A DNA stretch of 32,519 nt from Kamptonema formosum PCC 10802. Its GTDB lineage: Bacteria > Cyanobacteriota > Cyanobacteriia > Cyanobacteriales > Oscillatoriaceae. Shown here piece by piece: positions 7,278 through 32,519 of this stretch (position 1 is the first letter of the stretch; each line of letters begins with the position of its first letter). The stretch covers positions 79,304 to 111,822 of the forward strand of contig NZ_KB235950.1 in the NCBI RefSeq assembly GCF_000332335.1, in the 5' to 3' direction. Under the pieces are notes generated by a model that was not told where the DNA came from, ran no database searches, and worked only from the letters and a program-made list of their open reading frames with translations. A program made the translations under genes and the position numbers.

Positions 7278-8114
7278 ATGCAGAGAAAAAAACCCAAGAG
7301 CAAAACTCGTTCCCTTTCTGTAAACCAGATCCGAAACCTAACCAAGTTAGAAGAGAAGCAACTATTACAGCGCCTTTCCGAAGGCGAAATGAGTGCCTTC
7401 TGGCAACTCTGGCAACAGCACCAAAAGTACCTGTATCATCGCTGTATCAGTTGGATGGGAGGCAATCATACCCATGCAGAAGAAGCGCTCAGTCTAGCAA
7501 TGCTCAAAGCGTTGCAACAACTGCCAGCCTGTGCCGAAAGAATTACCAATCTCCGCGCTTGGCTCACCCGCTTCACCCACAATCTTTGTGTGGATATCCA
7601 CCGAGAGCGCCGCAGGAAGGCAATAGGAATGGAGAGCCTTGAAGAAATAGCCGTTAAAGAAGAAGAAGCGGTTATCTCTAGCTTAGACTGTCCCGAATCA
7701 GCAATTCTACGTGATGAGTTGGGACAGGTCATTCGCGACGCTGTAGACGCTCTTCCTTCCCGACTCCGCACTCCTTTTGTCCTGCTTTACTACCATCAAG
7801 TTTCCTATCCAGATATTGCCCAACAACTCGCGCTATCCCAAGATAACGCTTACAAACGCATACAACAGGCGCGAGATATTCTGAAAAAGCGTTTGATAAG
7901 GTATTTGTCTGGGGCGGACAATTCCGTGTTAGCGTCCTCCGAAACCTCTTGCAAAAAGAGTAATTTTGTGGTGGTTAGTTCCCAATCGGACTCTCCAGTA
8001 GCGATGGATTCAGGGTGCATGATTGCAGCAATCAATTATCAGTTAACAGCGACATGCCTAGAAAAACTGTCTCATGCGTCTTATTGCTCACCCAGCCATC
8101 AGGGGTGGAGATAA
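7278..8114 (+). CDS. ECF-type RNA polymerase sigma factor
   Basis: This 278-residue protein has a sigma-70 region 2 at about residues 36-118 (GEMSAFWQLWQQHQKYLYHR, then AEEALSLAMLKAL and LRAWLTRFTHNLCVDIHRER). A linker follows, then region 4 at about residues 150-212 with the helix-turn-helix VSYPDIAQQLALSQDNAYKR. Regions 1 and 3 are missing, as in extracytoplasmic-function sigma factors. A C-terminal tail of about 65 residues, rich in Ser and with four Cys, follows region 4 and could be a regulatory extension. There is no adjacent membrane anti-sigma gene. Instead the 3' end overlaps the TPR gene, which suggests translational coupling. It may control the cluster 2 kb downstream, where a repeated upstream element carries a CGTC box (inference). 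Confidence 0.92.
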   Translation: MQRKKPKSKTRSLSVNQIRNLTKLEEKQLLQRLSEGEMSAFWQLWQQHQKYLYHRCISWMGGNHTHAEEALSLAMLKALQQLPACAERITNLRAWLTRFTHNLCVDIHRERRRKAIGMESLEEIAVKEEEAVISSLDCPESAILRDELGQVIRDAVDALPSRLRTPFVLLYYHQVSYPDIAQQLALSQDNAYKRIQQARDILKKRLIRYLSGADNSVLASSETSCKKSNFVVVSSQSDSPVAMDSGCMIAAINYQLTATCLEKLSHASYCSPSHQGWR

Positions 8115-9793
8115 ATGTTTCCCTGGTCTTAGACGAAAAGCCAGCCCGAATTAACCAGAAGATCAAAACATTAAGTCAGTATGTGCAGCAGTATCCCTCT
8201 GGATGGAAGAAACGGTTAGAATTGGCGAACCTGCTGTACGCAATGGGCCGTTGGGAGCAGGCGGTTGAGGAGTACCGGCAAGTCATCGAGCGACAGCCCC
8301 AATTAATTGAGGTGCGGTTGAAATTGGGGAAAATGTTGCAATTAATGGGACAGGAGCTGGATGCAGCAGCAGTTTATGAGAGGGCCTTGTCCTTGGTAGG
8401 CGATGAAGCGACTCGGCAGCATATCGGTGGACTAATTGCAGTTTGCAGGGGTGACACTCAGGGAGCGATTGGGGCTTTTGAGTCAGCCGCTTCCCTAGAA
8501 CCGGAAAACGCGGCTCACTGGCTGGCTGTGGGGCGGGTGCGGATGGAGACAGAGGATGCACTTGCTGCGGTGCGAGCGTTTGATGCAGTGCTGTCACTGA
8601 AGCCAGACGATATAGTGGCGCTGATTGACAGCTACGATGCGCTGATTGCCCTGGGTAATGTCAGGGAAGCGCAGCGGCGGTTGAGCAGGGTGCTGGAGTT
8701 GGCTCCCGACGACATCAGGGCACTCAAACGACAGATAGACAATCGCTGCCGGATGAGATTGGTATCGGGGGAGGAGGCGAAGCAGACTAAACAGATGATT
8801 AGCTCCGCTCAGCGACAGGCTCCCGATGCGGTGGATGCCTGCGAGTTGCTGGCATATTATCAGATTTTCCAAGGGGAGTGGGCCAAAGGAGTCGGGGTGC
8901 TGGCACAGTTTACCGAGGAACACCCGAATAATCCCAGGGGCTGGTATTCCTATGGACGGTGCTTGTTCCGCACGGGTGAATACCAGAGGGCGGCTGAGGC
9001 GATGCTGGCAGCGTATCGTCTGTACCCCAAGGATGGCGAAATTTATCAGGCGTTGTGCGAAATTTTGCCGGCGGCGGGGATGACCTCTGGCCCTACGCCG
9101 GCAGATCCCCCCCAGCCCCCCTTAAAAGGGGGGGACTCTGAGGAGGCTACGTCTGCAAAGCACACAGAGGGAACCCGTCTGAAAGTCCCCCTTTTTAAGG
9201 GGGATTTAGGGGGAGGGAACAGCAACCGGCCTGGAGAGGGGGGTGAAGTCACCCTTGCATCAATAGTAGAGGAGATGCTGGAGCGTTTTCCCCATCGCTG
9301 GAGCGTTTGGGCGACGGCGGGGCGGGTGCTGGTGGAACATTTTCAGGAAATTGAGCGGGGGTGCAGTCTCTCTGCGAAGGGGACGCAACTAATGCCGGTG
9401 TTGGCGGATGCTTGGTTTCGTCACGGGCGGGTGTTGGCGCTGGCGGGGAAACACCGGCAGGCGGTGGAGGCGTTGGCGCATGGATGGCAGCTGTTGCCAG
9501 AAGCGGGGGGCTATCTGGCATCTGTGTCGGCGGCGGTGTGGTTGGGGGAGAGCTATCAGGTGCTGGGGGATGAGGCGGCGAGCCGGCGGTGGTGGGAAGC
9601 GGCTTGTGGGCCTGGTTTGGAACTGATGGAGTTTGAGCCGGCTGTGCTTTGTTACTGGCAAGGGAGAGCTTTGGAGGGGTTGGGGGATGTGAGGGGTGCG
9701 GTGGAGGCGTATCAACGCGCTTTGAGCCAGCAGTTGCTCTATCCCGAGCGAGGGGAGGTTGAGGGGGCGCTGAAACGGCTGCAAGCTAGGTAG
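8054..9793 (+). CDS. Tetratricopeptide-repeat protein
   Basis: With the ATG at 8054 this is a 579-residue protein; an in-frame GTG at 8015 would add 13 residues. Either start overlaps the sigma factor's 3' end in another frame. From about residue 50 it consists of TPR-like helical hairpins, for example LLYAMGRWEQAVEEYRQVIE, LGKMLQLMGQELDAAAVYER and YGRCLFRTGEYQRAAEAML, in two blocks. Between the blocks a Pro/Gly/Lys-rich stretch (PPLKGG, then KVPLFKGDLGG) is encoded by an inserted DNA repeat. There is no signal peptide or membrane segment. TPRs form protein-binding scaffolds. Coupling to the sigma gene makes a regulatory partner role plausible, but the true function is unknown. The last third is markedly richer in G than the first. 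Confidence 0.85.
   Translation: MPRKTVSCVLLLTQPSGVEINVSLVLDEKPARINQKIKTLSQYVQQYPSGWKKRLELANLLYAMGRWEQAVEEYRQVIERQPQLIEVRLKLGKMLQLMGQELDAAAVYERALSLVGDEATRQHIGGLIAVCRGDTQGAIGAFESAASLEPENAAHWLAVGRVRMETEDALAAVRAFDAVLSLKPDDIVALIDSYDALIALGNVREAQRRLSRVLELAPDDIRALKRQIDNRCRMRLVSGEEAKQTKQMISSAQRQAPDAVDACELLAYYQIFQGEWAKGVGVLAQFTEEHPNNPRGWYSYGRCLFRTGEYQRAAEAMLAAYRLYPKDGEIYQALCEILPAAGMTSGPTPADPPQPPLKGGDSEEATSAKHTEGTRLKVPLFKGDLGGGNSNRPGEGGEVTLASIVEEMLERFPHRWSVWATAGRVLVEHFQEIERGCSLSAKGTQLMPVLADAWFRHGRVLALAGKHRQAVEALAHGWQLLPEAGGYLASVSAAVWLGESYQVLGDEAASRRWWEAACGPGLELMEFEPAVLCYWQGRALEGLGDVRGAVEAYQRALSQQLLYPERGEVEGALKRLQAR
9107..9216. repeat. In-frame palindromic repeat insertion inside the TPR gene
   Basis: About 110 bp are bounded by inverted C/G-rich ends: CCCCCCTTAAAAGGGGGG on the left, and CCCCCTTTTTAAGGGGG with ATTTAGGGGGAGGG on the right. 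The ends are near complements of each other. It is translated as a Pro/Gly/Lys-rich loop (PPQPPLKGG ... KVPLFKGDLGG) without breaking the TPR frame. Confidence 0.7.
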
Positions 9794-9953: not shown

Positions 9954-10523
9954 ATGCCAGCCCCAACCTACCTAAACTGTAACGAGAGTCAGAAAAACCA
10001 AGGCCAAAAAGCCTACAATGAAGTTCGCTTCTTATTGGGCAAGGCTAATAGTGCTATAATCAGTTTGCAAAAATACAGCCCGGGACAAAACTACGAACCC
10101 AAAGATATAGAGGAGGCGGATCGTTTTTTCAAGTGGTTTGGCTCCATAAATACTGCAAATTTAGCGACTGTCCGCGATCGAGTAATTTATCCTATGGTCA
10201 GGCAGTTAGAGAATAACTCTGTAACTATTGAATGTGGAGGAGCTGATTGCGAGCGACGAGATTTTGCTTATGTCACAGCACCTGGTGCAGGATTAGGTGT
10301 TGGAATCATAATTAACTTGTGTGAGGCTTTTTTCACAGCCCCCTTATATGGTACTAACTCCCAAGTAGGTACACTGCTCCATGAAATATCACATTTAGTG
10401 GGTAACACTAACGATCATAAATACGGTCAAAGCCGATGCTTAGAATTAGCAAAAACAAACCCATTAGAAGCTATAAACAACGCTGACAATTATGAGTATT
10501 ACCTGGAATCTTTCCATTACTAG
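9954..10523 (+). CDS. M35-family (Asp-zincin) metallopeptidase domain protein
   Basis: This 189-residue protein contains LLHEISHLVG (HExxH) at about residues 142-151, followed closely by NTNDHKYG. The spacing and the Asp match the HExxH plus GTxDxxYG signature of the Asp-zincins (deuterolysin and lysine-specific metallo-endopeptidase, M35). In that family the two His and the Asp bind zinc, and Glu is the catalytic base. The C-terminal NADNYEYYLESF helix is also typical. Five Cys are present. No signal peptide or leader is visible (it starts MPAPTYLNCNESQ), which is unusual for a family that is normally secreted or part of a toxin. It shares its upstream element with the PatA-like protease and cyanovirin genes. 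Possible roles are a peptide-processing enzyme or an effector. Confidence 0.78.
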   Translation: MPAPTYLNCNESQKNQGQKAYNEVRFLLGKANSAIISLQKYSPGQNYEPKDIEEADRFFKWFGSINTANLATVRDRVIYPMVRQLENNSVTIECGGADCERRDFAYVTAPGAGLGVGIIINLCEAFFTAPLYGTNSQVGTLLHEISHLVGNTNDHKYGQSRCLELAKTNPLEAINNADNYEYYLESFHY

Positions 10524-11178: not shown

Positions 11179-11250
11179 TGTAGGGACGCAAGGCGGAAAG
11201 ACCAACAAATTTTGTGTGCCTATTTGCTCAAGTTTGACGGTCAACTTCCA

Positions 11251-11656
11251 ATGAAAAAGGTCATGCATTTTCTCAAAAAGAGCTGCGATTTTTTGGTAGC
11301 AATTGCTCTGTTTTTCGGTGCTGTGAGCAACAGCGCTCTAGCGGCTGGCGATTTAAGCAAAACCTGCAAAGATGCTCAACTTAAAGGCGCGGTTCTATCA
11401 GCTAGCTGTCAGAAGGCTAGTAGCTCCGGTTTTCCAAGCTCTATTGATTTAGACCGGCATATTCAAAATGCAAATGGCAACCTGTCTTGGGGGGAGAACG
11501 GCTGTCTCTAAAGCGTGCAAATCCCTCGAAATCGCTGACAATAGCACTTTCAAAGATCAATGTAAAACAGTGGACAGCGTTACGGTAAAGGCTACTTCCA
11601 TTAATTTAAATGAGCATATCGCTAACCTGGATGGAAGCTTGACATACGAACCCTAA
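11251..11656 (+). pseudogene. Secreted cyanovirin-N homology (CVNH) protein, frameshifted
   Basis: The ATG at 11251 begins a signal peptide (a basic MKKVMHFLKK start, a hydrophobic core, and cleavage near SALA-AG). The first CVNH half follows: DLSKTCKDAQLKGAVLSASC then SIDLDRHIQNANGNLSW. A stop arises after ENGCL at 11512. The second half continues in another frame: KACKSLEI, DQCK, and INLNEHIANLDGSLTYE ending at 11656. A one-base change at the GGGGGG run (11489-11494) or just after it would restore one protein with the normal spacing between Trp and the next Cys. CVNH proteins bind mannose-rich glycans. The cause may be a real frameshift, slippage or a sequencing error. The upstream element is intact. 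Confidence 0.82.
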
Positions 11657-11934: not shown

Positions 11935-13944
11935 ATGGCAGTTACACAGACAAACGTCACTGATATTTCAGGATTACCCGGACTAGAAAAACTGTGGTCT
12001 GAAACAAAAGGCGACTCCCACATCTGTGTGGCCATTCTTGACGGTCCAGTAGACCAGTCTCATCCCTATTTTGACGGTGCCAACCTCACCAGAGTGCAAA
12101 CCACGATTTCAGAGACGGCTAGCACCGGGCTGATGTCGAGTCACGGAACGCACATTACCAGCGTCATCTTCGGTCAGCATAACAGTTCCGTCCCCGGTAT
12201 TGCTCCTGGCTGTCGCGGACTGATTGTGCCGGTGTTTTCCGATAATCGCAGAGGTTCGCTTTCCCAGCTAGACCTCGCACGCGCTATCAATCAAGCGGTT
12301 GAAGCCGGCGCTCATGTAATTAACATTAGCGGCGGTCAACTGGCTCAAGCGACAGAGGCTGACCCAATACTGGCAAAAGCGGTCAAATTCTGCAATGACA
12401 GTGGTGTTCTGATTGTGGCTGCTGCGGGAAATGATGGGTGTCAGTGCCTCCACGTTCCGGCTGCCTTGCCTTCAGTTCTCGCTGTGGGTGCGATGAATGC
12501 GCAGGGATTGCCCTTCGATTTCAGTAATTGGGGGGAGACATATCAAACCCAAGGCATTCTCGCTCCTGGTGAAAACATCCAGGGTGCGGAATCGGGGGGC
12601 GGTACGGTTCTGAAAAGCGGTACCAGCTTTGCGACTCCTATTGTATCTGGAATTGTGGCGCTGCTGCTGAGCGTGCAGCTGCAACGTGGTGAAAAGCCCG
12701 ACCCCCACGCTGTCCGTGAGGCGCTTCTCAAGAGCGCTTTGCCTTGCAACCCAGAAGCGGTTTCAGATTGCCGTCGCTTTTTGGTCGGAAGTCTCAATAT
12801 TCCTGGGGCTTATGCCCTGATTGCAGGACGAGGAAGGAAAGAAGTGTCTGAGGAGAAATTAGAGGAAGCGATGATTCAACCTAGTGACGCGACTAGCCTC
12901 AATCTAGAACCGTCCGCCAACCAGCTGCCAGATGTTGCCGTGCCGGTGGCAGAAGTCACAACAGCTGAATTTGTCTCAACAACTGTAAAGAATTTGGAAA
13001 ATACAATGACTGTAACGCCTAGCCAACTAGCAACACCTTCTGTCACGCCCAGCAGCGTGGTGGCTTCTGAAAACTGCGGCTGTAACGGTGCCGGTGCAAA
13101 ATCTCTAGTTTACGCCCTGGGAACAGTTAGTTACGATTTCGGCACCGAGGCTCGTCGAGATAGCTTTAAACAGCTAATGCCAATGGTTGAAGGCAATCCG
13201 CCTTTCCCGGCCAATCCATACGTAGTTAGCCAGATGGTGAATTATCTCGAGCCAAACCCCTACGAAGCAAAATCGCTGATTTGGACGTTAAACCTAGAGC
13301 TAACACCGATTTACGCAATTGAACCTGTTGGTTCTTTTGCCGAGCAAGCTTATCAGCACCTGATTTCAGCTATCAAGGGGCAAATCAAACCCGAAGACGA
13401 TCCTGAATATATTTCCAGGGTTTCAATTCCTGGTGTGTTGACAGGCAAGAACGTCAGGCTATTTTCTGGGCAAGTTGTTCCCGTGATCGCCCCAGAAGTT
13501 CGCGGGATGTACGAGTGGAACGTCAACCAATTGGTAACACTGGCGGTTAATGCAGCAAAAGCAAGCGCTACAGCAACGCAGGCTGCTCAGCAGGAGCAAG
13601 CTACGCGAGCTTCTCTGAAGGAGTTTCTCAATCGTATGTACTACGAATTTCGGAATCTGGGTCAAACATCCCAGGAGCGAGCGCTCAATTTCGCGGCGAC
13701 GAATGCGTTCCAAGCAGCACAAGCGTTTAGCGAGGCAACGAGTAAGGGGATGCAGCTTGACCGTATTGAAACAGAAAAAAGCCCGTTCTGTCGGATGGAT
13801 TCAGATTGTTGGGATGTCAAACTGAAGTTTTTCGATCCGGAAAATGACGACCGGGCGAAAAAAGTATATCGCTTCACTGTGGATGTGAGCGATACTATGC
13901 CAGTCACGATTGGCGAGGTGCGTACCTGGTCTGTCTCGGACTAA
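11935..13944 (+). CDS. patA: PatA-like cyanobactin maturation protease (subtilisin family S8)
   Basis: This 669-residue protein has an N-terminal subtilisin domain (residues 10-300) with the catalytic triad Asp36 (AILDGPVD), His70 (SSHGTH) and Ser231 (SGTSFATP). The text around it (GIAPGCRGLIVPVFSD, NDGCQCLHVPAALPSVLAVG, DFSNWGE) is diagnostic of PatA/TruA. A low-complexity linker (about 300-375) leads to CGCNGAG and the C-terminal PatA/PatG-type domain of unknown function (about 380-560), then an Ala/Gln-rich helical tail. PatA cleaves cyanobactin precursors just after the recognition sequence GVEAS/GLEAS. That sequence is present in two peptides encoded 0.4-0.7 kb downstream. There is no signal peptide, so it acts in the cytoplasm. 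No macrocyclase-type PatG is seen here. Confidence 0.9.
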   Translation: MAVTQTNVTDISGLPGLEKLWSETKGDSHICVAILDGPVDQSHPYFDGANLTRVQTTISETASTGLMSSHGTHITSVIFGQHNSSVPGIAPGCRGLIVPVFSDNRRGSLSQLDLARAINQAVEAGAHVINISGGQLAQATEADPILAKAVKFCNDSGVLIVAAAGNDGCQCLHVPAALPSVLAVGAMNAQGLPFDFSNWGETYQTQGILAPGENIQGAESGGGTVLKSGTSFATPIVSGIVALLLSVQLQRGEKPDPHAVREALLKSALPCNPEAVSDCRRFLVGSLNIPGAYALIAGRGRKEVSEEKLEEAMIQPSDATSLNLEPSANQLPDVAVPVAEVTTAEFVSTTVKNLENTMTVTPSQLATPSVTPSSVVASENCGCNGAGAKSLVYALGTVSYDFGTEARRDSFKQLMPMVEGNPPFPANPYVVSQMVNYLEPNPYEAKSLIWTLNLELTPIYAIEPVGSFAEQAYQHLISAIKGQIKPEDDPEYISRVSIPGVLTGKNVRLFSGQVVPVIAPEVRGMYEWNVNQLVTLAVNAAKASATATQAAQQEQATRASLKEFLNRMYYEFRNLGQTSQERALNFAATNAFQAAQAFSEATSKGMQLDRIETEKSPFCRMDSDCWDVKLKFFDPENDDRAKKVYRFTVDVSDTMPVTIGEVRTWSVSD

Positions 13945-14001
13945 AAAGCTGCATCAAACTTTATTTAATTTCTGCCAAAGGTTCTACAAGAAGAAACCCT
14001 C

Positions 14002-14154
14002 ATGAATAATTTGCCAAAGCAATCTCAGCCCGTGGTTCGTAATATTAACACGACATCCCCCTTATTGAATAGTTCAGGGGCCAGCATTTCCGACTACACG
14101 AGCTGTTACAACTTAAAAGGTCTGGCCAGGAATCTCTGTATGGCTGCGTATTAG
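14002..14154 (+). CDS. RiPP precursor-like peptide 1 (two-Cys type)
   Basis: A 50-residue peptide 57 bp downstream of the PatA-like gene. The leader starts MNNLPKQSQPVVR, close to the LPQQGQPVIR start of PatE-family cyanobactin precursors. The spacer NINTTSPLLNSSGASIS leads to a short C-terminal region with Cys35 and Cys46 (DYTSCYNLKGLARNLCMAAY), which could form a disulfide or thioether loop. There is no GVEAS sequence. The assignment rests on the shared leader and position. It is too short for automatic gene calling, and the start is supported by AAGAAG upstream and by alignment with its sister peptides. Confidence 0.72.
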   Translation: MNNLPKQSQPVVRNINTTSPLLNSSGASISDYTSCYNLKGLARNLCMAAY

Positions 14155-14201
14155 GAATCGGGGATTGCCGGGCAAAAATCACTCAAACAGGAGAAACCGC
14201 G

Positions 14202-14249
14202 ATGAAAGTTCCTATCCAAGCCGGACACGTACCGCGTTACCAGCGGTAA
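14202..14249 (+). pseudogene. Leader-only remnant of a precursor peptide
   Basis: The ATG at 14202 with CAGGAGAAACC upstream encodes only MKVPIQAGHVPRYQR before a stop. This matches the leader pattern M-K-(L/V)-P-I-Q-A-x-x-V-x-R of the peptide at 16205, but no core follows. It is most likely a truncated precursor gene. A translated leader peptide with a regulatory role is a less likely alternative. Confidence 0.5.
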
Positions 14250-14301
14250 TTGTTCGGAGACAACAGACAAGCAAACACTCAAGAAAAAATCAGGAAAAGT
14301 T

Positions 14302-14460
14302 ATGAACCTTCCCAAGCAAGTTGCCCCCGTGGAACGGACGCTCACTCCGGCTGCAATTTCAGGACAAAGTGGTGTTGAAGCCAGCGCCTGGTATGATACC
14401 CTGCTGGAAGTTGCAAAGAAAGTAGCTCCAATTGCCACAACCGTTCTGGGCAGTCTCTAA
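14302..14460 (+). CDS. Cyanobactin-like precursor peptide 2 (GVEAS, helical core)
   Basis: A 52-residue peptide. The leader MNLPKQVAPVERTLTPAAIS is followed by GQS and GVEAS (residues 24-28), identical to the PatA recognition sequence II of cyanobactins. The predicted released product is residues 29-52: AWYDTLLEVAKKVAPIATT then VLGSL, ending in Leu. This product has no Cys and no C-terminal macrocyclisation signal of the AYDG kind, and would fold as an amphipathic helix. It is 78% identical in its leader to peptide 3. The GGAAAAG upstream serves as ribosome binding site. A linear, possibly membrane-active peptide is my inference. Confidence 0.82.
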   Translation: MNLPKQVAPVERTLTPAAISGQSGVEASAWYDTLLEVAKKVAPIATTVLGSL

Positions 14461-14508
14461 TTTAGGCAGCTTAATCAGCCTCGCTTAAAGGCTGTAACAA
14501 AATTCCTC

Positions 14509-14536
14509 GTTCGGGGGTTGCTCAAAACTCCCGAAC
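14509..14536 (+). terminator. Intercistronic hairpin between peptides 2 and 3
   Basis: GTTCGGGGGTT pairs with AACTCCCGAAC across a short loop, 48 bp after the stop of peptide 2. It lacks a T-tract, so it is more likely a processing or stability hairpin, or a leaky terminator, than a full stop. Confidence 0.5.
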
Positions 14537-14572
14537 GACTCCTAAAAACATCAAGGATAAAGAGGCAAAATC

Positions 14573-14734
14573 ATGAACCTTCCCAAACAATCTGCACCCG
14601 TCGAACGCACCCTCGCTCCGACTGCAATTTCAGGGCAAACTGGTGTTGAAGCCAGCGCATGGTATGACACAGTTCTGGATGTTGTCAAGACCGTTGCCCC
14701 AATTGCTGCCCCAATTCTGACCTCTTTGATCTAA
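14573..14734 (+). CDS. Cyanobactin-like precursor peptide 3 (GVEAS, helical core)
   Basis: A 53-residue paralogue of peptide 2: leader MNLPKQSAPVERTLAPTAIS, then GQT and GVEAS (residues 24-28). The predicted product is residues 29-53, beginning AWYDTVLDVVKTVAPIAAP and ending TSLI. The leader and the first residues AWYD are nearly invariant compared with peptide 2, whereas the rest of the core varies, as expected for a precursor family. The ribosome binding site is AGAGGC, 9 bp before the ATG. It lies between the two intercistronic hairpins. Confidence 0.82.
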   Translation: MNLPKQSAPVERTLAPTAISGQTGVEASAWYDTVLDVVKTVAPIAAPILTSLI

Positions 14735-14788
14735 CTCTGAACCATGCTCCCTAGCCTGGGTTGCTAGCAAACAGTAGCCCGATCACTT

Positions 14789-14821
14789 GCTCGGTGGTTG
14801 CACGCCGAACAACTACCGAGC
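14789..14821 (+). terminator. Intercistronic hairpin between peptide 3 and the methyltransferase
   Basis: GCTCGGT (14789-14795) pairs with ACCGAGC (14815-14821), extended by GTT/AAC inside, for about 11 bp. No T-run follows. Like the hairpin after peptide 2 it follows a GVEAS-type gene, so it may set the stoichiometry of peptide and enzyme. Confidence 0.5.
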
Positions 14822-14893
14822 ATCTCTAAAAGGGCTGAGTAACCTTCGCTGCCAAGTCAAACTGCTAATGAACAGGCGCTAAACAACGGCACA

Positions 14894-15751
14894 ATGAATC
14901 TGACTTCTTTACCAGTTGAATCTATCTCTGATACTGCCTTCTTGACAGCTGCCTATCGCGCCTTGGAAACCCAGCGCCCAGACGCTCTCTTCCAAGATAC
15001 CCACGCCCAAATTTTAGCTGGGGAGCGGGGCAAAAAGCTCGTCGAGGCCATGCCAGGGGGAAAAGCAGGAGCATCAGGCTGTGCCGTGCGTACTTGCGTG
15101 ATGGATGAGCTGATTCTGCGGACTGTCAAAGAAGACGGGGTTGATACAGTGCTGAACTTGGGAGCTGGTCTGGATACGAGACCTTATCGGCTGCCTTTGC
15201 CGACTTCCCTGCGTTGGTGCGAGTGCGACTTGCCAGTTGTCCTAGCCTACAAAGCCAACAAACTTGCCGGCGTGCAGCCGAGGTGCGTTCTGGAATCGGT
15301 TTCGCTGGACGTTACTGATATCATTGCAAGGCAGATGTTCTTCCAGGGTGTCGGTATAGCAGCAAAACGGGTACTGGCGGTTACGGAAGGGCTGCTCATT
15401 TATATGACTGCCGAGCAAGTAGCCGCACTGGCTGCTGACCTGTACGCACAGCCCCAGTTTCGGTGGTGGCTGACGGATCTGGCCTCGCCCAGTGCGTTGC
15501 GATATTTCCAGAAAAGCATAGGTGGGTCGCTTAATTCCAGCGAAGCAACCTTGCAATTCGCCCCCGAAGAAGGAACTGAATTCTTTCGGCGATATGGTTG
15601 GATGAGCGTGGAATTTCGCTCCCTGCTGGAGGAGGGGCAGCGCTTGCAGCGGGAAGTCTTGCCCAAATCGCTGCTGGCTCAATTAGAAGCGCCGGAACAT
15701 TGGGAAATGTGGCGGAAGATGTCTGGCTTCGTTTTGCTGAACCGCCACTAA
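14894..15751 (+). CDS. SAM-dependent methyltransferase, leucine carboxyl methyltransferase family
   Basis: A 285-residue class I methyltransferase. It shows the family pattern AVRTCVMDELIL (near residue 63), the SAM-binding loop VLNLGAGLDTRPYRL (about residues 85-99), CDLPVVLAYKANKL and VTEGLLIYM. These place it with LCMT1 and the TIGR00027-type O-methyltransferases. LCMT methylates the C-terminal carboxylate of a leucine; bacterial relatives methylate varied carboxylates and hydroxyls. It sits between the GVEAS peptides and two further precursor-like genes. Peptides 2 and 3 end in Leu and Ile. A C-terminal methyl ester on the mature peptide is therefore a specific hypothesis, not a demonstrated activity. 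The start has only a weak ribosome binding site. Confidence 0.85.
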   Translation: MNLTSLPVESISDTAFLTAAYRALETQRPDALFQDTHAQILAGERGKKLVEAMPGGKAGASGCAVRTCVMDELILRTVKEDGVDTVLNLGAGLDTRPYRLPLPTSLRWCECDLPVVLAYKANKLAGVQPRCVLESVSLDVTDIIARQMFFQGVGIAAKRVLAVTEGLLIYMTAEQVAALAADLYAQPQFRWWLTDLASPSALRYFQKSIGGSLNSSEATLQFAPEEGTEFFRRYGWMSVEFRSLLEEGQRLQREVLPKSLLAQLEAPEHWEMWRKMSGFVLLNRH

Positions 15752-15864
15752 AGCTGAAGTCAGGGTTGAGGTATATTCTTCCGGAAAATACTGCCATGCT
15801 TCAGTATAACTCGCTCCATTAATCCAGCACATGAAGTTGTCTTTGTATCCCCAAAGGAGCGCTT

Positions 15865-16104
15865 ATGAAACTTCCGAACCAGTCTCTCCCCGTGAGTAGG
15901 AGATATCTCATCCAGCCGGACTTGGTATTAGTGTCTGTTAAAGACAGTAAAGGCAGGTTGAGCCGCCGGGAATATCAGTACGTGCACGGTTCAAATCCCA
16001 ATCCGAACGCTCCCATGAAATTTTCCGAGCCGGCTGACTGTGGGTGCCCTATATTTTCAGGCGTGTCAATGGCGATGTGCTTTGCCGCCTGTGGCATTTT
16101 TTGA
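15865..16104 (+). CDS. RiPP precursor-like peptide 4 (four-Cys type)
   Basis: A 79-residue peptide with leader MKLPNQSLPVSR, the LPxQxxPVxR pattern of its neighbours, behind an AAGGAGC ribosome binding site. A basic, Lys/Arg/Tyr-rich middle leads to a Cys-rich C-terminus (residues 57-79, ADCGCPIFSG then VSMAMCFAACGIF) with Cys59, 61, 72 and 76. That tail resembles a small bacteriocin-type core. No GVEAS is present, so how it would be cleaved is unclear. Confidence 0.68.
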   Translation: MKLPNQSLPVSRRYLIQPDLVLVSVKDSKGRLSRREYQYVHGSNPNPNAPMKFSEPADCGCPIFSGVSMAMCFAACGIF

Positions 16105-16204
16105 GGGAGAAATTTGGCTCAATTGGCTAACCATTTTTTAACTGCAATACAATCCTAAAACTAGGATTTAAACTGTGGGAGTCTGAAAAATAAGGAGAAA
16201 AAAC

Positions 16205-16444
16205 ATGAAACTTCCAATTCAAGCTGCAGCTGTCTCCCGACACATTAATACAACTCTACCACAAAACACGGTAGGTTGCGGAGTGAAATCTTCAGGGTTT
16301 TGCTTTTATGGAGCTGGTGATGACCCGTTGGCGTGGACGCGGGCGCAGGCGCAGTATGGATATTGCCCTGGTACAAATGCCAAGGTTTGGGTTAATAATA
16401 TAGGGGACGGACAGAATGCCTGTACGGCGGGTTTGTTTCGTTAA
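16205..16444 (+). CDS. RiPP precursor-like peptide 5 (four-Cys type)
   Basis: A 79-residue peptide with leader MKLPIQAAAVSR and an excellent AAGGAG ribosome binding site. The residues after the leader (HINTT) match those after the leader of peptide 1 (NINTT), which supports common descent. The rest carries Cys25, Cys33, Cys54 and Cys73 and many Gly/Asn/aromatic residues. No recognised domain or GVEAS is seen. It is the last gene before a strong terminator. Confidence 0.66.
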   Translation: MKLPIQAAAVSRHINTTLPQNTVGCGVKSSGFCFYGAGDDPLAWTRAQAQYGYCPGTNAKVWVNNIGDGQNACTAGLFR

Positions 16445-16570
16445 CCAATAACTCCGAAATAGGGAGCGTTACAGGATACAATCGCCCCCCTTACACCAAC
16501 TCGCACATCCGCGCAACTCTGCAATAATTAGAGATCGGCACCACCTTCTTGCAGTCCCGCCACCTAAAAA

Positions 16571-16608
16571 GCGACCGCCCCCTTTTTTGATTGAAAAAAG
16601 GCGGTCGC
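16571..16608 (+). terminator. Strong bidirectional terminator closing the peptide operon
   Basis: GCGACCGCC (16571-16579) pairs with GGCGGTCGC (16600-16608), and inside it TTTTTT pairs with AAAAAA around the loop GATTG. It is followed by ATTTACTTTAT. It lies 127 bp after peptide 5 and ends the cluster. Confidence 0.75.
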
Positions 16609-16998
16609 ATTTACTTTATCTCCCTTGCCATTATTCTAAGAGCGCGAGGGCGCCAACAAACAGCCATCAACAACTAACACTCATCCCGCCACCGCTCTTC
16701 AACATTGAGAAAAATACCTTGGTCGGTATCGCTACCCACACCCCCTTCCGGGCGAATGAGCTACCGCTCACGGCAAAGCCTATCGCGCTTGATTAGTAAT
16801 CAATAACATGTAGCATTTTTCTCCGCAAACTCTCCCTAGCGGGCGTGTCAGTCCCCCCTTTTTTTGCAGCAAATACAATTAAATATTGATGGATTAATTT
16901 AACATATTTAACTGTGCTATGATATTCGGAATAGGGGTAAAAGACCTGGCAGTAATAAGCAAGCCATTCTCTGCGGGGAGTTGCGTAAAATGCGCGTT
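16609..16998. other. Intergenic, no supported gene
   Basis: Open frames here have no ribosome binding site or protein-like pattern. A perfect hairpin GCGTAAAA ... TTTTACGC (16983-17004) overlaps the end of the decayed DUF3368 gene. Confidence 0.5.
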
Positions 16999-17487
16999 TT
17001 ACGCAGCCATTAATAATCTTTTAGGGTCTTTTTCCTCTTCCACCAGCCGTTGCAGCCAGCTCGGCGCAACCCAAAAAACAACGGCTCGCAAACGTTCAAA
17101 AGTTACTGCTAGGTCGATTACACCGGCACCCCCAGCATCCTTCAGAACGCCAAGCAATCCCATAATTCTCAACCCGCGTCAACCGCGCTCTCCGCCTTGC
17201 TGCTTTGTCATCCAACACGACTAAACCGGCACCCTGTTTCCCCGCAAAAAAATTGCCTCCCCTTCCCCTGCATCGAGCTGTTCCAAACCGGCATCAGAGG
17301 AAACACCGGCTGTCTGAATTTCCCACCACTCAGGAAGTTGCCTTATCCAATTTTGGACTGCTGCCGGCGACTCAGCCCCCAGTTCATCAAAAACAGCTTG
17401 AGGAATCTTCACCGCCCCATATAACTGCGGCAGTAAGTTAATTTGCTCAATCTGTAATAGATACCAAATCGGAAACCTATCATAAAC
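16999..17487 (-). pseudogene. Decayed DUF3368 (PIN/VapC-like) protein gene
   Basis: Three minus-strand frames join into one DUF3368-type protein. Frame one (from about 17487) reads FPIWYLLQIEQINLLPQLYG, then KIPQAVFDELGAESP, ending in LEQLDAGEGEAIFL with a stop at 17221. Frame two carries VLDDKAARRRARL. Frame three carries LRIMGLLGVLKDAGGAGVID then LAVTFERLRAVVFWVAPSWL, ending at 16999. At least two frameshifts and the loss of a start codon make it a pseudogene. Members of this family are PIN-like nucleases, often in toxin-antitoxin pairs. No antitoxin partner is visible upstream. Confidence 0.75.
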
Positions 17488-17844
17488 AGCGAGCGTGGAT
17501 TTCCCAGTTCTTCAAGTCTCTGGATGTCGCGTTCCATGTTCTGTTACCAATGCGTCCCACCGGCATGCCCCCCCGAAAAGCCAGTCCAACCCCGCCAAAC
17601 CCGAATATTAAATTGTTATAAAATTAAGAGCAACTGGGAGGATGGCATCTACCATGAAGCGGCTCATCTTCGCCCAGCATCTGCCACGCTGCTAGCAAAA
17701 GATTCATCCTTCCCAACTACTCTATACATTTTCAATCTAACTCACCGCCGAGCGTTCTGGCAGAGAAATACATGAAAGTTTTACATTTGCTAAAAAGCTT
17801 TGCGTGCCGTAACAAAAATTTGCAAAAACGGGCAAGCATCTTTT
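17488..17844. other. Intergenic, no supported gene
   Basis: The AT-rich part near 17605-17630 and a few short frames show nothing recognisable. It may include the degraded upstream part of the DUF3368 gene. Confidence 0.4.
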
Positions 17845-18013
17845 GGGACAGGCGGGACGCCGGTCCTACGTCATTGAGATGGGGGGAATAGGGACAGGCG
17901 GGACGCCGGTCCTACGTCATTGAGATGGGGGGAATAGGGACAGGCGTTCTGGCCGGTCCTACGTCAAGAGACACCGACAATGGGGACAGGCGTTCTGGCC
18001 GGTCCTGCGCCAA
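17845..18013. repeat. Four tandem 46-nt units with palindromic core
   Basis: Units begin at 17845, 17891, 17937 and 17983, each with GGGACAGGCG. The first two contain GGGACGCCGGTCCTACG and the last two TTCTGGCCGGTCCT. The tandem array sits directly upstream of the amidase gene and may contribute to its promoter region. Confidence 0.8.
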
Positions 18014-18084
18014 CCCGAACAGAGCGCAACCAATTATGCTAGTTCCTGAAAGTGAGAGAGCTCTGTCACAAAAGGAAACACCGT

Positions 18085-19446
18085 ATGAGACGAATTTTTC
18101 TTTCCGCCGGTCACGGCGGCTATGACGGGAAACCCACGGATACAGGGACAATTGCCAGCCCCACCACAGAAGCCAGAGAAATGATCCAGCTGCGCGATCT
18201 GGTAGCGGCTGAGTTGCGCTCCCGCTCCGTGGAAGTTCTTGCGGTTCCCGACGATCTGAATAGCCGGCAAACCATCGAATGGATCAACGCTCGCCAGCGC
18301 CTGGGGGACTGCGCCCTGGAACTCCACACCGGCACCTCTTCCAACCCAACTCTCCGGGGAGCCTCCGTCTTCTACATCGCCGGCAACTCCGAGCGGAAAG
18401 GGGATGCTGAACAGCTGCTGCTCGCCCTTGTGGGCCGAGTTCCCCAACTGCCAGATCGGGGAGCTAAACCAGATACCGCCACCACTTCCGGCAGTTTACC
18501 ATTCTGCCGGGGAATTGTCATCCCCTCCCTGCTGATGGAAGTTGGCTCCCTCCCCAACCCCGATGACCGCTACCTGATCCAAAATCGACGCCGCGACATA
18601 GCCGCCGGCATTGCAGACGGACTGGCGGTATGGATCGGTGCGGGGAACCCTCTCGCTCCCCAGCCGGCAGACACCTATCGCCCGTGCAATATCAACCTTA
18701 ACGGTCAACTTTATGGCGAAGAGGGCGCGATTGTCAATGGCAACGCCTGCATTCCCATCGATCTCGCAGATAGCTTGGGGGTCGATCTCTCTCAAGTTCC
18801 CCAAATCCGCCGCGTCTCCCACAGAAATATTGTTTATATCCGAGCTATCGAACTGCGGGAATTCAATATCTCTGTCCGCTGGGACGCCGCCACCGGCACA
18901 GTCGCTCTCCGCTCTATCCTAAATGTGTGCCGGCGTCAGCTCGACCGGATCGCCGGTCCGGGAAACACCACCGAATTGCAGCTCATGATGTTTCTCAAAG
19001 CCAACAATGAAGCTGCCCTGATTCAGTTTCCAGAACTTGCTAAAGATATCGCCAAGCTCTACCGAGAAGAAGGCATTATTGAAGGCATCAACTATGACCT
19101 CGCCTTCTGTCAAATGTGCCTGGAGACAAACTTTCTCAGCTTTGGCGGATCGCTCAAACCGGCACAAAACAACTTTGGCGGTTTGGGCGGCATTAGTACC
19201 GGCGCTTCAGGAGGCTCTTTTCCCAGTCCCAGAATTGGCGTAAGAGCGCACATCCAGCATCTAAAAGGCTACGCTACTAAGGAACCTTTAGTGCAGGAAG
19301 CCGTCGCTCCGAGGTTTCGCTTTCTCACCCGGGGAATAGCCCCCACGGTAGAACACCTCAGCGGGCGCTGGTCGCCAGACTTGCACTATGGCAAGAAGAT
19401 TATGGCGCTGCTCAGACGCCTCTATGAAGAGGCTGGTTTGCTGTAA
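18085..19446 (+). CDS. N-acetylmuramoyl-L-alanine amidase with glucosaminidase domain
   Basis: With the ATG at 18085 (AAAGGAAACACC upstream) this is a 453-residue protein; an upstream extension of 11 residues is less likely. Residues 1-185 form a zinc amidase of the Amidase_3 type (SAGHGG, ALELHTG, and MEVGSLPNPDD supplying zinc ligands and the catalytic Glu), which cuts the amide between muramic acid and the stem peptide. A stalk-like domain follows (about 195-295, LNGQLYGEEGAIVNGNACIP). The C-terminus is a glucosaminidase-type domain (about 310-453; CLETNFLSFGG and QNNFGGLG). It should remodel or lyse peptidoglycan. Oddly, no signal peptide precedes the amidase domain, so export must use another route or the upstream region differs. 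Confidence 0.9.
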   Translation: MRRIFLSAGHGGYDGKPTDTGTIASPTTEAREMIQLRDLVAAELRSRSVEVLAVPDDLNSRQTIEWINARQRLGDCALELHTGTSSNPTLRGASVFYIAGNSERKGDAEQLLLALVGRVPQLPDRGAKPDTATTSGSLPFCRGIVIPSLLMEVGSLPNPDDRYLIQNRRRDIAAGIADGLAVWIGAGNPLAPQPADTYRPCNINLNGQLYGEEGAIVNGNACIPIDLADSLGVDLSQVPQIRRVSHRNIVYIRAIELREFNISVRWDAATGTVALRSILNVCRRQLDRIAGPGNTTELQLMMFLKANNEAALIQFPELAKDIAKLYREEGIIEGINYDLAFCQMCLETNFLSFGGSLKPAQNNFGGLGGISTGASGGSFPSPRIGVRAHIQHLKGYATKEPLVQEAVAPRFRFLTRGIAPTVEHLSGRWSPDLHYGKKIMALLRRLYEEAGLL

Positions 19447-30119: not shown

Positions 30120-32519
30120 TTAGATGAGGGTGAAATCCTCAACCCCGATGAGATTGCTTTGCACTCCCTGAAGGGATGCCAAGACTTCACCGCTGCTGGC
30201 AATACTGATTAAAGTGGCACCGCTGCTTTGGGTAATTGCGAGCTGACTGAACGTCAAACCGGCGGCTAATCCGAGCAAATCTTCCCCATTTTGGAAGTCT
30301 AATATTATATCACTTCCGTAGCCTTCTGTCAAGACAAACGTGTCGAGATTGCCACCGCCAATAAGGGTGTCGTTGCCGAAATCCCCGCGCAGCCAGTCAT
30401 CGCCAGTGTCACCCGTGAGGATGTCATTATCCTTGCCGCCATTGAGGGTGTCATTGCCGTCACCGCCATTGAGGGTGTCAGCGCCTTGGTTGCCGGCGAG
30501 ATAATCATCGCCGGCGTCACCATCGAGGAGATCGCTGCCGGTGTTGCCGAGTACGGTATCGCTGTCTTGGCCGGCATTGATGGTGTCATTGCCGGCACAC
30601 CCATCTATCAAATCAGCGCCAACATTGCCGAACAAAGCATCCTCGCCGTCACCGCCACAGATGGTGTCATCCCCAATGTCGCCCAGGACAGTATCATTGT
30701 CGGCACCGCCTTTGAGAATGTCGCTGTCCATGCCCCCATAAATCGTATCGCTGCCAAGGCTTCCGCCGATAAAATCAGCGCCGGCGCTGCCGAACAAAAG
30801 GTCATCGCCGCTGCGCCCGATTAGGGTATCGTTACCCAAATCGCCCAGAAGGATATCATTGCCGGCTCCACCTAATAAAGCGTCATTATCCTGGCCACCA
30901 TAAATAGTATCGTCCCCCAGGCTTCCGCCGATGAAATCGTCACCCGTATTGCCAAACAAAAGATCGTTGCCATCCCCGCCATAGAGGGTGTCTGCCCCGA
31001 TGTCGCCCAGGAGGATATCACTGCCATCGCCGCCTAATAAAGCGTCACCATCCTTGCCCCCATATATGGTATCATTGCCTATATCGCCATTGGCGAAGTC
31101 AGCGCCCTGATTGCCATAGAGCAAGTCATTGCCACTGCCTCCGTCTAAGTTATCATTGCCATCACTGGCAGCGAGGGTGTCATTGCCACCCAAACCATTG
31201 ATAGCTTCGCCGACTTCTGTGCCGTTGAGGGAATCGTCTCCCTCTGTGCCATTGAGGGTTTGCGCAACGGAGTTGGGAGTCGCGCTGCCGGTGCCGAAAT
31301 CTGGCGTGGGGAATAGATCGCAAATGCAAGATTCGTCAGAAGTTGGCGCAGGCGCAGTGACTGTGAAGTTAAAAATATCGCTGGCGCTGGCACCGGCACT
31401 ATCGGTAGCTGTCACCTGCACGGAGATTGTGCCAACATCGCCCTGAGTGGGAGTGCCGGTGAAGGTGCCGGCAGTCGCATCAAATGTCAGCCACGAAGGT
31501 AAGGGAGTGCCGCCGGCTAATGTGGCTGAATAGGTTAAAATGTCACCGGCATCCACATCCGAAAAGGTAGACACAGGCAACAGGTAAGTAAAGGCGGTAT
31601 CTTGCGCGGCAAATCTGTCAGGGATTGGAGTGACGAGTGCCGGCGCATCGTTAGTGTTGGCGACTGTCAAATTAAAGGTATCGCTGACAGAAGCACCGGC
31701 ACTATCGGTAGCTGTCACCTGCACGGAGATTGTGCCAACATCGCCCTGAGTGGGAGTGCCGGTGAAGGTGCCGGCAGTCGCATCAAATGTCAGCCACGAA
31801 GGTAAGGGAGTGCCGCCGGCTAATGTGGCTGAATAGGTTAAAATGTCACCGGCATCAATATCCGAGAAGGTAGAAGCGGGAATTTGGAAGTTGAAGGCGG
31901 TATCTTCCGCTGCCGGTGTGTCAGGAATCGAGGTGACGACAGTTGGCGCATTGTTAGTGTTGGCGACTGTCAAATTAAAGGTATCGCTGACAGAAGCACC
32001 GGCACTATCGGTAGCTGTCACTTGCACGGAGATTGTGCCAACATCGCTGTTAGTAGGTGTGCCGGTGAAGGTGCGAGTCGCCGCATTAAATGTCAGCCAG
32101 GAAGGTAGGGGAGTGCCGCCGGCCAATGTGGCGGAATATGTTAAAATGTCACCGGCATCAATATCCGAGAAGGTAGAAGCGGGAATTTGGAAGTTGAAGG
32201 CGGTATCTTCCGCTGCCGGTGTGTCAGGAATCGAGGTGACGACAGTTGGCGCATTGTTAGTGTTGGCGACTGTCAAATTAAAGGTATCGCTGACAGAAGC
32301 ACCGGCACTATCGGTAGCTGTCACTTGCACGGAGATTGTGCCAACATCGCTGTTAGTAGGTGTGCCGGTGAAGGTGCGAGTCGCCGCATTAAATGTCAGC
32401 CAGGAAGGTAGGGGAGTGCCGCCGGCTAATGTGGCTGAATAGGTTAAAATGTCACCGGCATCAATATCCGAGAAGGTAGAAGCGGGAATTTGGAAGTTGA
32501 AGGCGGTATCTTCCGCTGC
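30120..32519 (-). CDS. Secreted RTX protein with Ig-like repeats, N-terminus beyond window
   Basis: The frame is open from the right edge to a TAA at 30120, giving 799 residues of the C-terminal part. An apparent GTG at 32330 is inside a repeat and is not the start. About four tandem domains of ~101 residues come first, with the putative-Ig pattern [38 protein letters not shown] and [18 protein letters not shown] short Cys-containing linker ([13 protein letters not shown]) follows. Then come about two dozen RTX calcium-binding nonapeptides (GGxGNDxLxG type), and a C-terminal segment ([20 protein letters not shown]) typical of a type I secretion signal region. The protein should be exported by an ABC-type system and folded by calcium outside. 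The repeats suggest an adhesin or S-layer-like surface role. Confidence 0.92.
31380..32519. repeat. Tandem 303-bp repeats inside the RTX gene
   Basis: Period 303 bp, matching the 101-residue Ig-like domains. The units at about 31954-32256 and 32257-32519 are virtually identical, the one at 31651-31953 differs at a modest number of sites, and the leftmost is most diverged. The array continues past the window edge. Low divergence means recent expansion, or a risk of assembly collapse. Confidence 0.88.

Follow-up and report, generated by a model that had tools for sequence, protein, structure and literature searches.

The window examined here is a stretch of 32,519 nucleotides from Kamptonema formosum PCC 10802, and its subject is the lone-PatA cluster at positions 11935–16608, in which a PatA-type protease is followed by five small genes, a 15-codon open reading frame (ORF) and an LCM-family methyltransferase. 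All of these genes lie on the plus strand. The protease (11935–13944) is a putative leader protease that consists of an S8 part with Asp, His and Ser residues followed by C-terminal PatG_D and PatG_C domains. Downstream of it are precursor 1 (14002–14154), a 50-residue peptide with two cysteines near its C-terminus (CYNLKGLARNLCMAAY); the 15-codon ORF (14202–14249), which encodes a leader only (MKVPIQAGHVPRYQR); and precursors 2 (14302–14460) and 3 (14573–14734), each made up of a leader, the sequence GVEAS and a predicted core (AWYDTLLEVAKKVAPIATTVLGSL and AWYDTVLDVVKTVAPIAAPILTSLI, respectively). The methyltransferase (14894–15751), an S-adenosylmethionine-dependent enzyme of the LCM/TIGR00027 family and a candidate tailoring enzyme, is followed by precursor-like protein 4 (15865–16104), which has a PatB-related leader and middle and a four-cysteine tail (CGCPIFSGVSMAMCFAACGIF), and by precursor 5 (16205–16444), which has 79 residues and four cysteines. 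A first-pass annotation of this region had described the protease, the methyltransferase inside the set, GVEAS in two of the small genes and a strong hairpin closing the set, and each of these is present. The hairpin lies 3′ of the set at 16571–16608 and has 15 pairs, eight of which are G–C; its score as a terminator is for the minus strand.

The protease scores 852 bits against TIGR03895 (cut-off 421) and its C-terminal part carries both PatG_D and PatG_C (PF18047 and PF18065). The S8 part is nearest to solved PatA proteases (395–368 bits; 395–371 for 4h6w, 4h6v and 3zxx), with lower scores against PatG macrocyclase structures (211–206 bits), and the best counterpart of the C-terminal part is 4uvq, the PatG domain of unknown function (284 bits). 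A scan with PF18065 matched 37 of 386 genomes, and the Kamptonema genome also has methyltransferases to which this domain is fused. When 118 family members were aligned, the Asp/His/Ser triad proved complete in all 35 proteases of the lone-PatA group described below. The Asp–His spacing in these enzymes is 28–35 (median 34), compared with 33–35 in canonical PatA and a median of 71 (range 34–178) in the 29 PatG-type copies that were measured. The extra length in the PatG-type copies falls at the position of the insert associated with macrocyclization. Judged by their sequences, the lone-PatA proteases are PatA-like and do not have it. As a separate observation, loci from Microtetraspora and Actinoallomurus (L129, L148 and L155) contain a second S8 protease in which the catalytic serine is read as cysteine (KGTCVAV), and we would regard these actinobacterial enzymes as natural candidates for peptide joining of the subtiligase kind.

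The motif [LV]PxQxxxVxR is found near the start of all five small genes and of the 15-codon ORF, in which V replaces L. A scan for the leader motif behind ATG starts gave no matches in four further 19-kb stretches from this genome, among them the cluster's own flanks (L015 and L016), so the motif is not a chance product. The shared start of the five small genes had been recognized in the first-pass annotation and stands; the accompanying description of the shortest ORF as a leader remnant does not. This ORF has the same length and position in three related loci (L080, L136 and L158), its counterpart in a fourth (L069) has 35 residues and has lost the Q, and a purine-rich sequence upstream of it is kept. 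Its ratio of nonsynonymous to synonymous substitution (dN/dS) is 0.10–0.40, on very few sites, too few for a firm value, and it is the conserved length and place that rule out a remnant. Matches of the window peptides to curated precursor families all fall under the cut-offs. Homologues of precursor 1 occur in the same four loci and retain the tail G[LM]AR..CMAAY. Precursors 2 and 3 also have homologues in all four, and each is predicted to form an amphipathic helix (p = 0.002 in both cases). The site and core of precursor 2 share 60% identity over 35 residues with a peptide in Duganella locus L122 (GIEAS, GWWDTLKSVASTVAPYAAKVAGALL), which points to a core type common to different phyla; the Duganella peptide, with its GIEAS-type helical core, is encoded at L122:12133–12240 in the betaproteobacterium Duganella sp. 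BJB480. No homologue of precursor 5 was found in the other four syntenic loci, and a tblastn search of the loci available gave only a match to its leader region (L036, E = 0.028).

Peptide 4 matches TIGR04220, the model for PatB/AcyB/McaB, with an E value of 4.7e-4 and 19.8 bits, below the curated cut-off of 55. Profile–profile comparison with PatB gave a probability of 95 and an E value of 3.7e-8 over residues 1–54 (PatB columns 1–54), leader included. On this sequence evidence residues 1–54 make peptide 4 a diverged relative of PatB. Ten canonical PatB proteins that we aligned have a leader of the same kind at their start (consensus MRLPKLSPPVKR). The tail of peptide 4 has four cysteines that are invariant in all five homologues, and such a tail is absent from these ten sequences. 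Excerpts of two papers (PMC4663559, PMC4259220) describe PatB as non-essential and of unknown role in canonical clusters. It had been stated earlier that ring-forming enzymes and PatB are missing from this region. A blastp search indeed found no YcaO gene and no second PatA/PatG gene within the window; the absence of PatB holds only by the curated cut-off. For PatF (TIGR04445) none of five genomes gave a match, and neither did the control, so this result shows little.

In four other cyanobacterial genomes the protease is likewise followed by precursor 1, the short ORF, precursors 2 and 3, the methyltransferase and PatB-like peptide 4, in that order. These are L158 (genome G437), L069 (genome G319) and the Okeania loci L080 and L136. 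Genome G319 was found by a peptide search (two copies), in which two of 60 genomes matched when the window genome is counted, and G437 by a profile search that matched six of 386 genomes in all. A search of named genomes with the protease gave Okeania sp. SIO2C9 and SIO3B5, with proteases that are 84–85% identical. Pairwise dN/dS is about 0.1–0.45 for every gene of the set for which it could be computed and is below 0.5 in all comparisons; in pairs that contain the window it is 0.14–0.22 for the protease and 0.14–0.20 for the methyltransferase. Precursor 5, found only in the window, was excluded from these tests. By these sequence comparisons every cluster gene that could be tested is under purifying selection and the cluster is not decayed. 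The word 'reduced', which had been applied to it at first, does not suit an arrangement that is conserved in relatives and whose genes are under such selection.

The cluster belongs to a wider group. In a tree of 118 full-length proteases, 35 single-protease rows (34 distinct, as L112 duplicates L063 and the two count as one) fall into one group with 99% local support. Four of these rows (L122, L128, L131 and L154) were flagged as long branches that meet. A tree of the protease domain alone (60 rows, including 28 of the 35) left out L112, L122, L128, L151, L153, L154 and L157, and in it the group is one side of a branch with support of 68/88 and 69% of bootstraps. The rows come from Cyanobacteriota, Pseudomonadota, Planctomycetota, Acidobacteriota, Actinomycetota, Bacteroidota and Bacillota. 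Membership is best supported, by both trees, for Cyanobacteriota, Pseudomonadota, Planctomycetota, Actinomycetota and Acidobacteriota; Bacteroidota and Bacillota are represented by single long-branch rows in the full-length tree only. Each lone-PatA locus has one PatA-family gene within the stretch that was examined, and 33 of the 35 have no YcaO gene there. The co-occurrence of a lone PatA-like protease with leader-motif peptides, which had been proposed as a check, is seen in other genomes. At least 5 kb was available on both sides of the protease in 24 of 37 stretches (the 35 rows plus L160 and L036), and for the remaining stretches, with less than 5 kb of flank on a side, absent neighbours are only partial evidence. 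A second single-protease lineage was also noted: locus L057 (genome G162) lies on the canonical side of the tree and has PatB as well as six precursor-like peptides, in each of which inspection by eye shows four cysteines but not a ring tail.

To describe the precursors across the group we used 71 peptides from 29 loci (the copy L112 not counted), filtered from 89 distinct scan matches of at least 30 residues in 35 loci. The 18 that were removed are mostly GTG or TTG frames, together with one masked sequence, a plausible peptide of L157 with one leader cysteine and a real-looking five-cysteine peptide of L062. Peptides of L153 and L157 were identified by eye only, and no leader-motif peptide was found in L113, L130 or L139. 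The site G[VILM]x[AP]S is present within residues 14–45 in 32 of the 71 precursors and in 17 of the 29 loci, compared with a mean of 0.63 and a maximum of 4 in 1000 sets of shuffled sequences. The heterocyclase element AEL[SADI] occurs in none of the 71, compared with 18 of 20 precursors at YcaO loci. Likewise, none has a macrocyclase-type tail, which is present in 39 of 64 other leader-motif peptides; the latter figure is a lower bound, as among the other 25 are PatB proteins, peptides with variant tails, those of L057 and L145, and three lone-PatA matches that the filter had removed. No precursor has a cysteine in its first 13 residues. The number of cysteines is even in 55 of the 57 precursors that have two or more (counted with a wider filter, 72 peptides), the odd cases being the five-cysteine L062 peptide, which the wider filter restored, and an L140 peptide that is maybe not a gene. 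By comparison, tailed ring-type precursors with two or more cysteines are even in 12 cases and odd in seven. Cysteine-free cores that follow G[VI][ED][AP]S are amphipathic beyond shuffled sequences in ten of 12 cases (p ≤ 0.009), the exceptions being one L062 peptide and a Mycolicibacterium peptide. Because the parity and site counts come from related sequences, the shuffle and binomial figures overstate independence.

We also searched for ring-forming enzymes across 28 lone-PatA genomes, leaving out that of L138; completeness is given for 11 of these and not for the other 17, which are represented by named contigs. When split matches in one frame are treated as one gene, 21 of the 28 have a single PatA-family gene. 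Fourteen of the 28 have no YcaO gene, and all 14 are also without a second PatA/PatG gene. Among 291 genomes of the class, 22 have a PatA-family match, of which eight hold a lone-PatA protease by tree position; one genome (G003) has only a fragment that was not placed in the tree. The syntenic genomes G437 and G319, both 99% complete, contain one PatA-family gene and no YcaO gene anywhere, so PatD or PatG acting in trans is not needed in them. It had been suggested at the outset that PatD or PatG homologues elsewhere in the genome would count against a cyclase-free pathway; none exists in G437 or G319, but the window genome has two YcaO genes and, on contig C3, a separate PatA/PatG cluster. 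The first YcaO gene adjoins precursors with nitrile hydratase-type leaders (NHLP; TIGR03793, 51.2 and 49.8 bits against 50.9) and the second adjoins two small ORFs without any NCBIfam match. No LPxQ peptide was found in either YcaO stretch, and the precursors of the contig C3 cluster carry FAGDDAE tails. Gene content taken alone would allow action in trans in the window strain, as it would in Okeania, but in the window strain it is unlikely because the recognition sites are missing from the lone-PatA precursors. Two further features of the contig C3 region (C3:5997985–6012069; L009 and L010) may be recorded. It encodes a TP_methylase of the kind used in borosins and two methyltransferases that carry a fused PatG domain of unknown function, and its PatA is very close to the PatA of Oscillatoria princeps L105.

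The methyltransferase of the cluster scores 101 bits against PF04072 (cut-off 22.3) and 115 bits against TIGR00027, which places it in the LCM family, and each of the five loci in the window set has it at this position. Its structure prediction failed (mean predicted local distance difference test score, pLDDT, of 34). From its family it may cap a carboxyl group, and the strict status of the cluster as one for ribosomally synthesized and post-translationally modified peptides (RiPPs) depends on the action of this enzyme. Neighbouring genes were compared between 35 lone-PatA and 32 canonical loci, with attention to families present in at least three lone-PatA loci; the counts are not independent, since several loci are close relatives. 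The LCM methyltransferase is found in five lone-PatA loci and one canonical locus. A patatin-like phospholipase occurs in seven lone-PatA loci (L064, L069, L080, L136, L158, L159 and L160) and in no canonical locus, and a broad response-regulator group occurs in both sets (11 and six loci, respectively). An extracytoplasmic function (ECF) sigma factor homologue is present in five of the 35 lone-PatA loci (the window, L069, L080, L089 and L158), on the opposite strand in L080, and in none of the 32 canonical loci. A tetratricopeptide repeat (TPR) gene is present in three lone-PatA loci and no canonical locus, and lies between the sigma factor and the protease in L089 and L158. The sigma factor, TPR and protease ORFs of L089 (8218–12109) overlap end to end, which suggests a single transcript.

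In the window the corresponding genes lie upstream of the cluster on the plus strand. The first (7278–8114) encodes an ECF-type sigma-70 family factor (TIGR02937, 74.9 bits; cut-off 42.9) and is a candidate regulator of the cluster, and the second (8015–9793, the longest ORF, with the real start probably slightly downstream) encodes a protein with TPR matches that is a candidate partner of the sigma factor. Both (7278–9793) may be part of the cluster. The interval from the TPR gene to the protease contains a gene for a lysine-specific M35 metallopeptidase (9954–10523) and a cyanovirin-N-like (CVNH) gene (11212–11656) that is split over two frames, with the first piece above the PF08881 cut-off and the second slightly under it. 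Elsewhere in the window, a large repeat protein on the minus strand (30120–32330) contains near-identical repeats followed, by eye, by GD-rich calcium-binding-like repeats. The cluster sits on contig C5 (472,727 bases), apart from the 6.9-Mb contig, and C5 may be a plasmid.

We consider it probable, on the basis of these sequence comparisons, that the lone-PatA protease cuts its precursors after G[VI]x[AP]S, which in precursors 2 and 3 reads GVEAS, and thereby yields linear peptides, some helical and others disulfide-bridged. An excerpt of PMC10885120 gives the known preference of PatA as cleavage after G(L/V)E(A/P)S. Everything downstream of the cut, up to the natural C-terminus, would be freed without further cleavage or cyclization, linear release being expected because there is neither a second recognition site nor a macrocyclase. 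Precursors 2 and 3 would thereby give amphipathic helices of 24–25 residues, and precursors 1, 4 and 5 would give peptides with paired cysteines, probably as disulfides. At least one of the products is probably a substrate of the LCM-type methyltransferase, possibly at a carboxyl group, and expression may be governed by the ECF sigma factor and TPR protein encoded upstream. We infer the cleavage, disulfide formation, methylation and regulation, as well as a biological role for the products as antimicrobials or signals. The first-pass annotation had proposed a divergent cyanobactin-like cluster without a cyclase, maybe of a new class, with linear or disulfide-bearing products; a 35-row group without the macrocyclase insert, 71 precursors without a ring tail or heterocyclase site and the even cysteine number in 55 of 57 support this proposal.

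Several observations weigh against this interpretation. No strict-site peptide is present in 12 of the 29 loci, and precursors 1, 4 and 5 of the window have no GVEAS-like site. By eye the protease has no obvious secretion signal and may therefore act in the cytoplasm, an unfavourable place for disulfide formation, and no exporter was recognized, although no search was aimed at exporters. The PatG domain of unknown function from canonical clusters did not bind PatE by nuclear magnetic resonance according to an excerpt of PMC4259220, so that a leader-binding role for this domain is a tentative reading. The nearest solved relatives of the methyltransferase are uncharacterized mycobacterial proteins, and a comparison with LCMT1 was not significant (E = 0.35). 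The grouping on the protease domain alone is weak. The ring-enzyme genes of the window strain described above count on the same side, as do YcaO genes near other lone-PatA proteases. L159 (genome G544) has a full cyclodehydratase of the thiazole/oxazole-modified microcin (TOMM) type at 16546–18843, 7.2 kb downstream and on the opposite strand, with a YcaO that is 66% identical to a YcaO of L106 and 44–49% identical to the other references tried. L153 has a distant YcaO-like ORF (15521–17161, 23–26% identical) 3.3 kb downstream, and genome G116 has a YcaO gene 15 kb away on the same contig, outside the stretch examined.

Other explanations of the same data have to be considered. The absence of ring-forming genes and the presence of one very short leader-like ORF might be expected of a decayed cyanobactin cluster in which the small ORFs are leftovers. 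We reject this on synteny and selection and regard it as extremely improbable, since the gene order is kept in four other genomes, the dN/dS values hold in all testable small genes, the short ORF included, and the catalytic residues are intact in all 35 proteases. If this were a cyanobactin pathway with cyclic or heterocyclized products, its PatD and PatG would have to be borrowed from other parts of the genome; the window strain offers the contig C3 cluster and the two YcaO genes, one of which is beside unclassified ORFs. The Okeania genomes G615 and G616 have further PatA-family and YcaO genes, and L159 and L153 have YcaO-like genes within 8 kb. Precursors for such a pathway should carry the recognition elements of the heterocyclase and macrocyclase, each of which is absent from all 71, and in the syntenic genomes G437 and G319 there is neither a YcaO nor a further PatA/PatG gene from which to borrow. 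In our view this makes borrowing very unlikely.

The remaining alternatives concern the products. Paired cysteines suit metal ligands as well as disulfides, CxC and CC motifs occur in several precursors, and thiols would stay reduced if the protease is cytoplasmic. The even-cysteine peptides might thus bind metal rather than form disulfides, with PatA merely trimming them. However, the helical cysteine-free precursors of the same loci could not bind metal in this way, the cysteine spacing varies widely among loci, and by eye there is no metal-related family among the recurrent neighbours; we think metal binding unlikely. We are somewhat less doubtful about the idea that the helical peptides serve in signalling or as internal effectors, perhaps in conjunction with the sigma factor and TPR protein, and not as antimicrobials, though on balance we do not favour it. 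An ECF sigma factor and a TPR protein adjoin the cluster in L089, L158 and the window, and cores 2 and 3 are conserved and not hypervariable, as would suit a signal. The peptides are nevertheless amphipathic hydrophobic helices of 22–35 residues that occur in tandem pairs, and in this we take them to resemble membrane-active peptides.

Comparison with known systems places linear release by a lone PatA close to, but outside, the cyanobactins. Cyanobactins made with YcaO (the patellamide, trunkamide and microcyclamide type) have the same PatA-family N-terminal protease and C-terminal domain, the same LPxQxxPVxR start and a GV[DE]AS-type precursor site (for example L093 and L102). The lone-PatA locus differs from these in having no heterocyclase, macrocyclase, LAELSEE-type element or AYDG/SYDG-type tail, and in that the core is the whole C-terminal part of the precursor. 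Those without YcaO (the anacyclamide and piricyclamide type), as described in an excerpt of PMC4663559, share PatA and the leader motif and likewise have no heterocyclase. Their products are rings, and they retain PatG and a FAGDDAE-like tail, neither of which is present in the lone-PatA cluster; the contig C3 cluster of the window genome has precursors of this type. The linear cyanobactins aeruginosamide and viridisamide (same excerpt of PMC4663559) resemble what is proposed here in having a linear product and a methyltransferase. They consist of 3–5 residues, are prenylated and thiazole-bearing, and are made with a fused methyltransferase–prenyltransferase, in contrast to the LCM-family methyltransferase and predicted cores of about 20–70 residues in lone-PatA loci. 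Unmodified or disulfide-bridged leader bacteriocins also have linear helical or cysteine-paired cores that are freed by a protease. Theirs is of the double-glycine/ABC-transporter kind, while the lone-PatA protease and leader are of the cyanobactin type.

The cluster thus has the PatA-type protease with its C-terminal domain, the LPxQxxPVxR leader and the G(L/V)E(A/P)S site of cyanobactins, the last as GVEAS in two peptides only. A second recognition tail (AYDG/SYDG or FAGDD) is found in none of the 71 precursors, and PatG is absent from the locus and from G437 and G319. As the second recognition site and PatG are lacking, we do not file the cluster as a cyanobactin. Nor does it have the features of a YcaO-dependent azole peptide (TOMM) cluster, as there is no YcaO in the window, G437 or G319 and the heterocyclase element is found in none of the 71. 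We call it a lone-PatA variant that resembles the first step of cyanobactin maturation, rather than a cyanobactin proper. No description of lone-PatA clusters was found in one open-access library; subscription papers were mostly not covered, so novelty in print is unproven.

As a broader and more tentative proposal, which we hold with a little less than even confidence, the lone-PatA loci may constitute a ribosomal peptide class of several phyla that is sister to the cyanobactins. PatA and its domain would be the whole core machinery, LPxQxxxVxR would serve as the docking signal, the products would be unringed and either disulfide-rich or helical, and PatB would be a relative of leader-bearing precursors. 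The parts of the cyanobactin system appear to be separable in that the ring and heterocycle elements are absent together, while PatA, its domain and LPxQxxxVxR stay together across phyla. Because PatA, the domain and the leader segment are kept together, the roles of the domain and of the leader's first half could be tested directly with one enzyme and one peptide. The lone-PatA loci would also represent a set of disulfide-rich and helical peptides that is mostly missed by searches keyed to YcaO or PatG.

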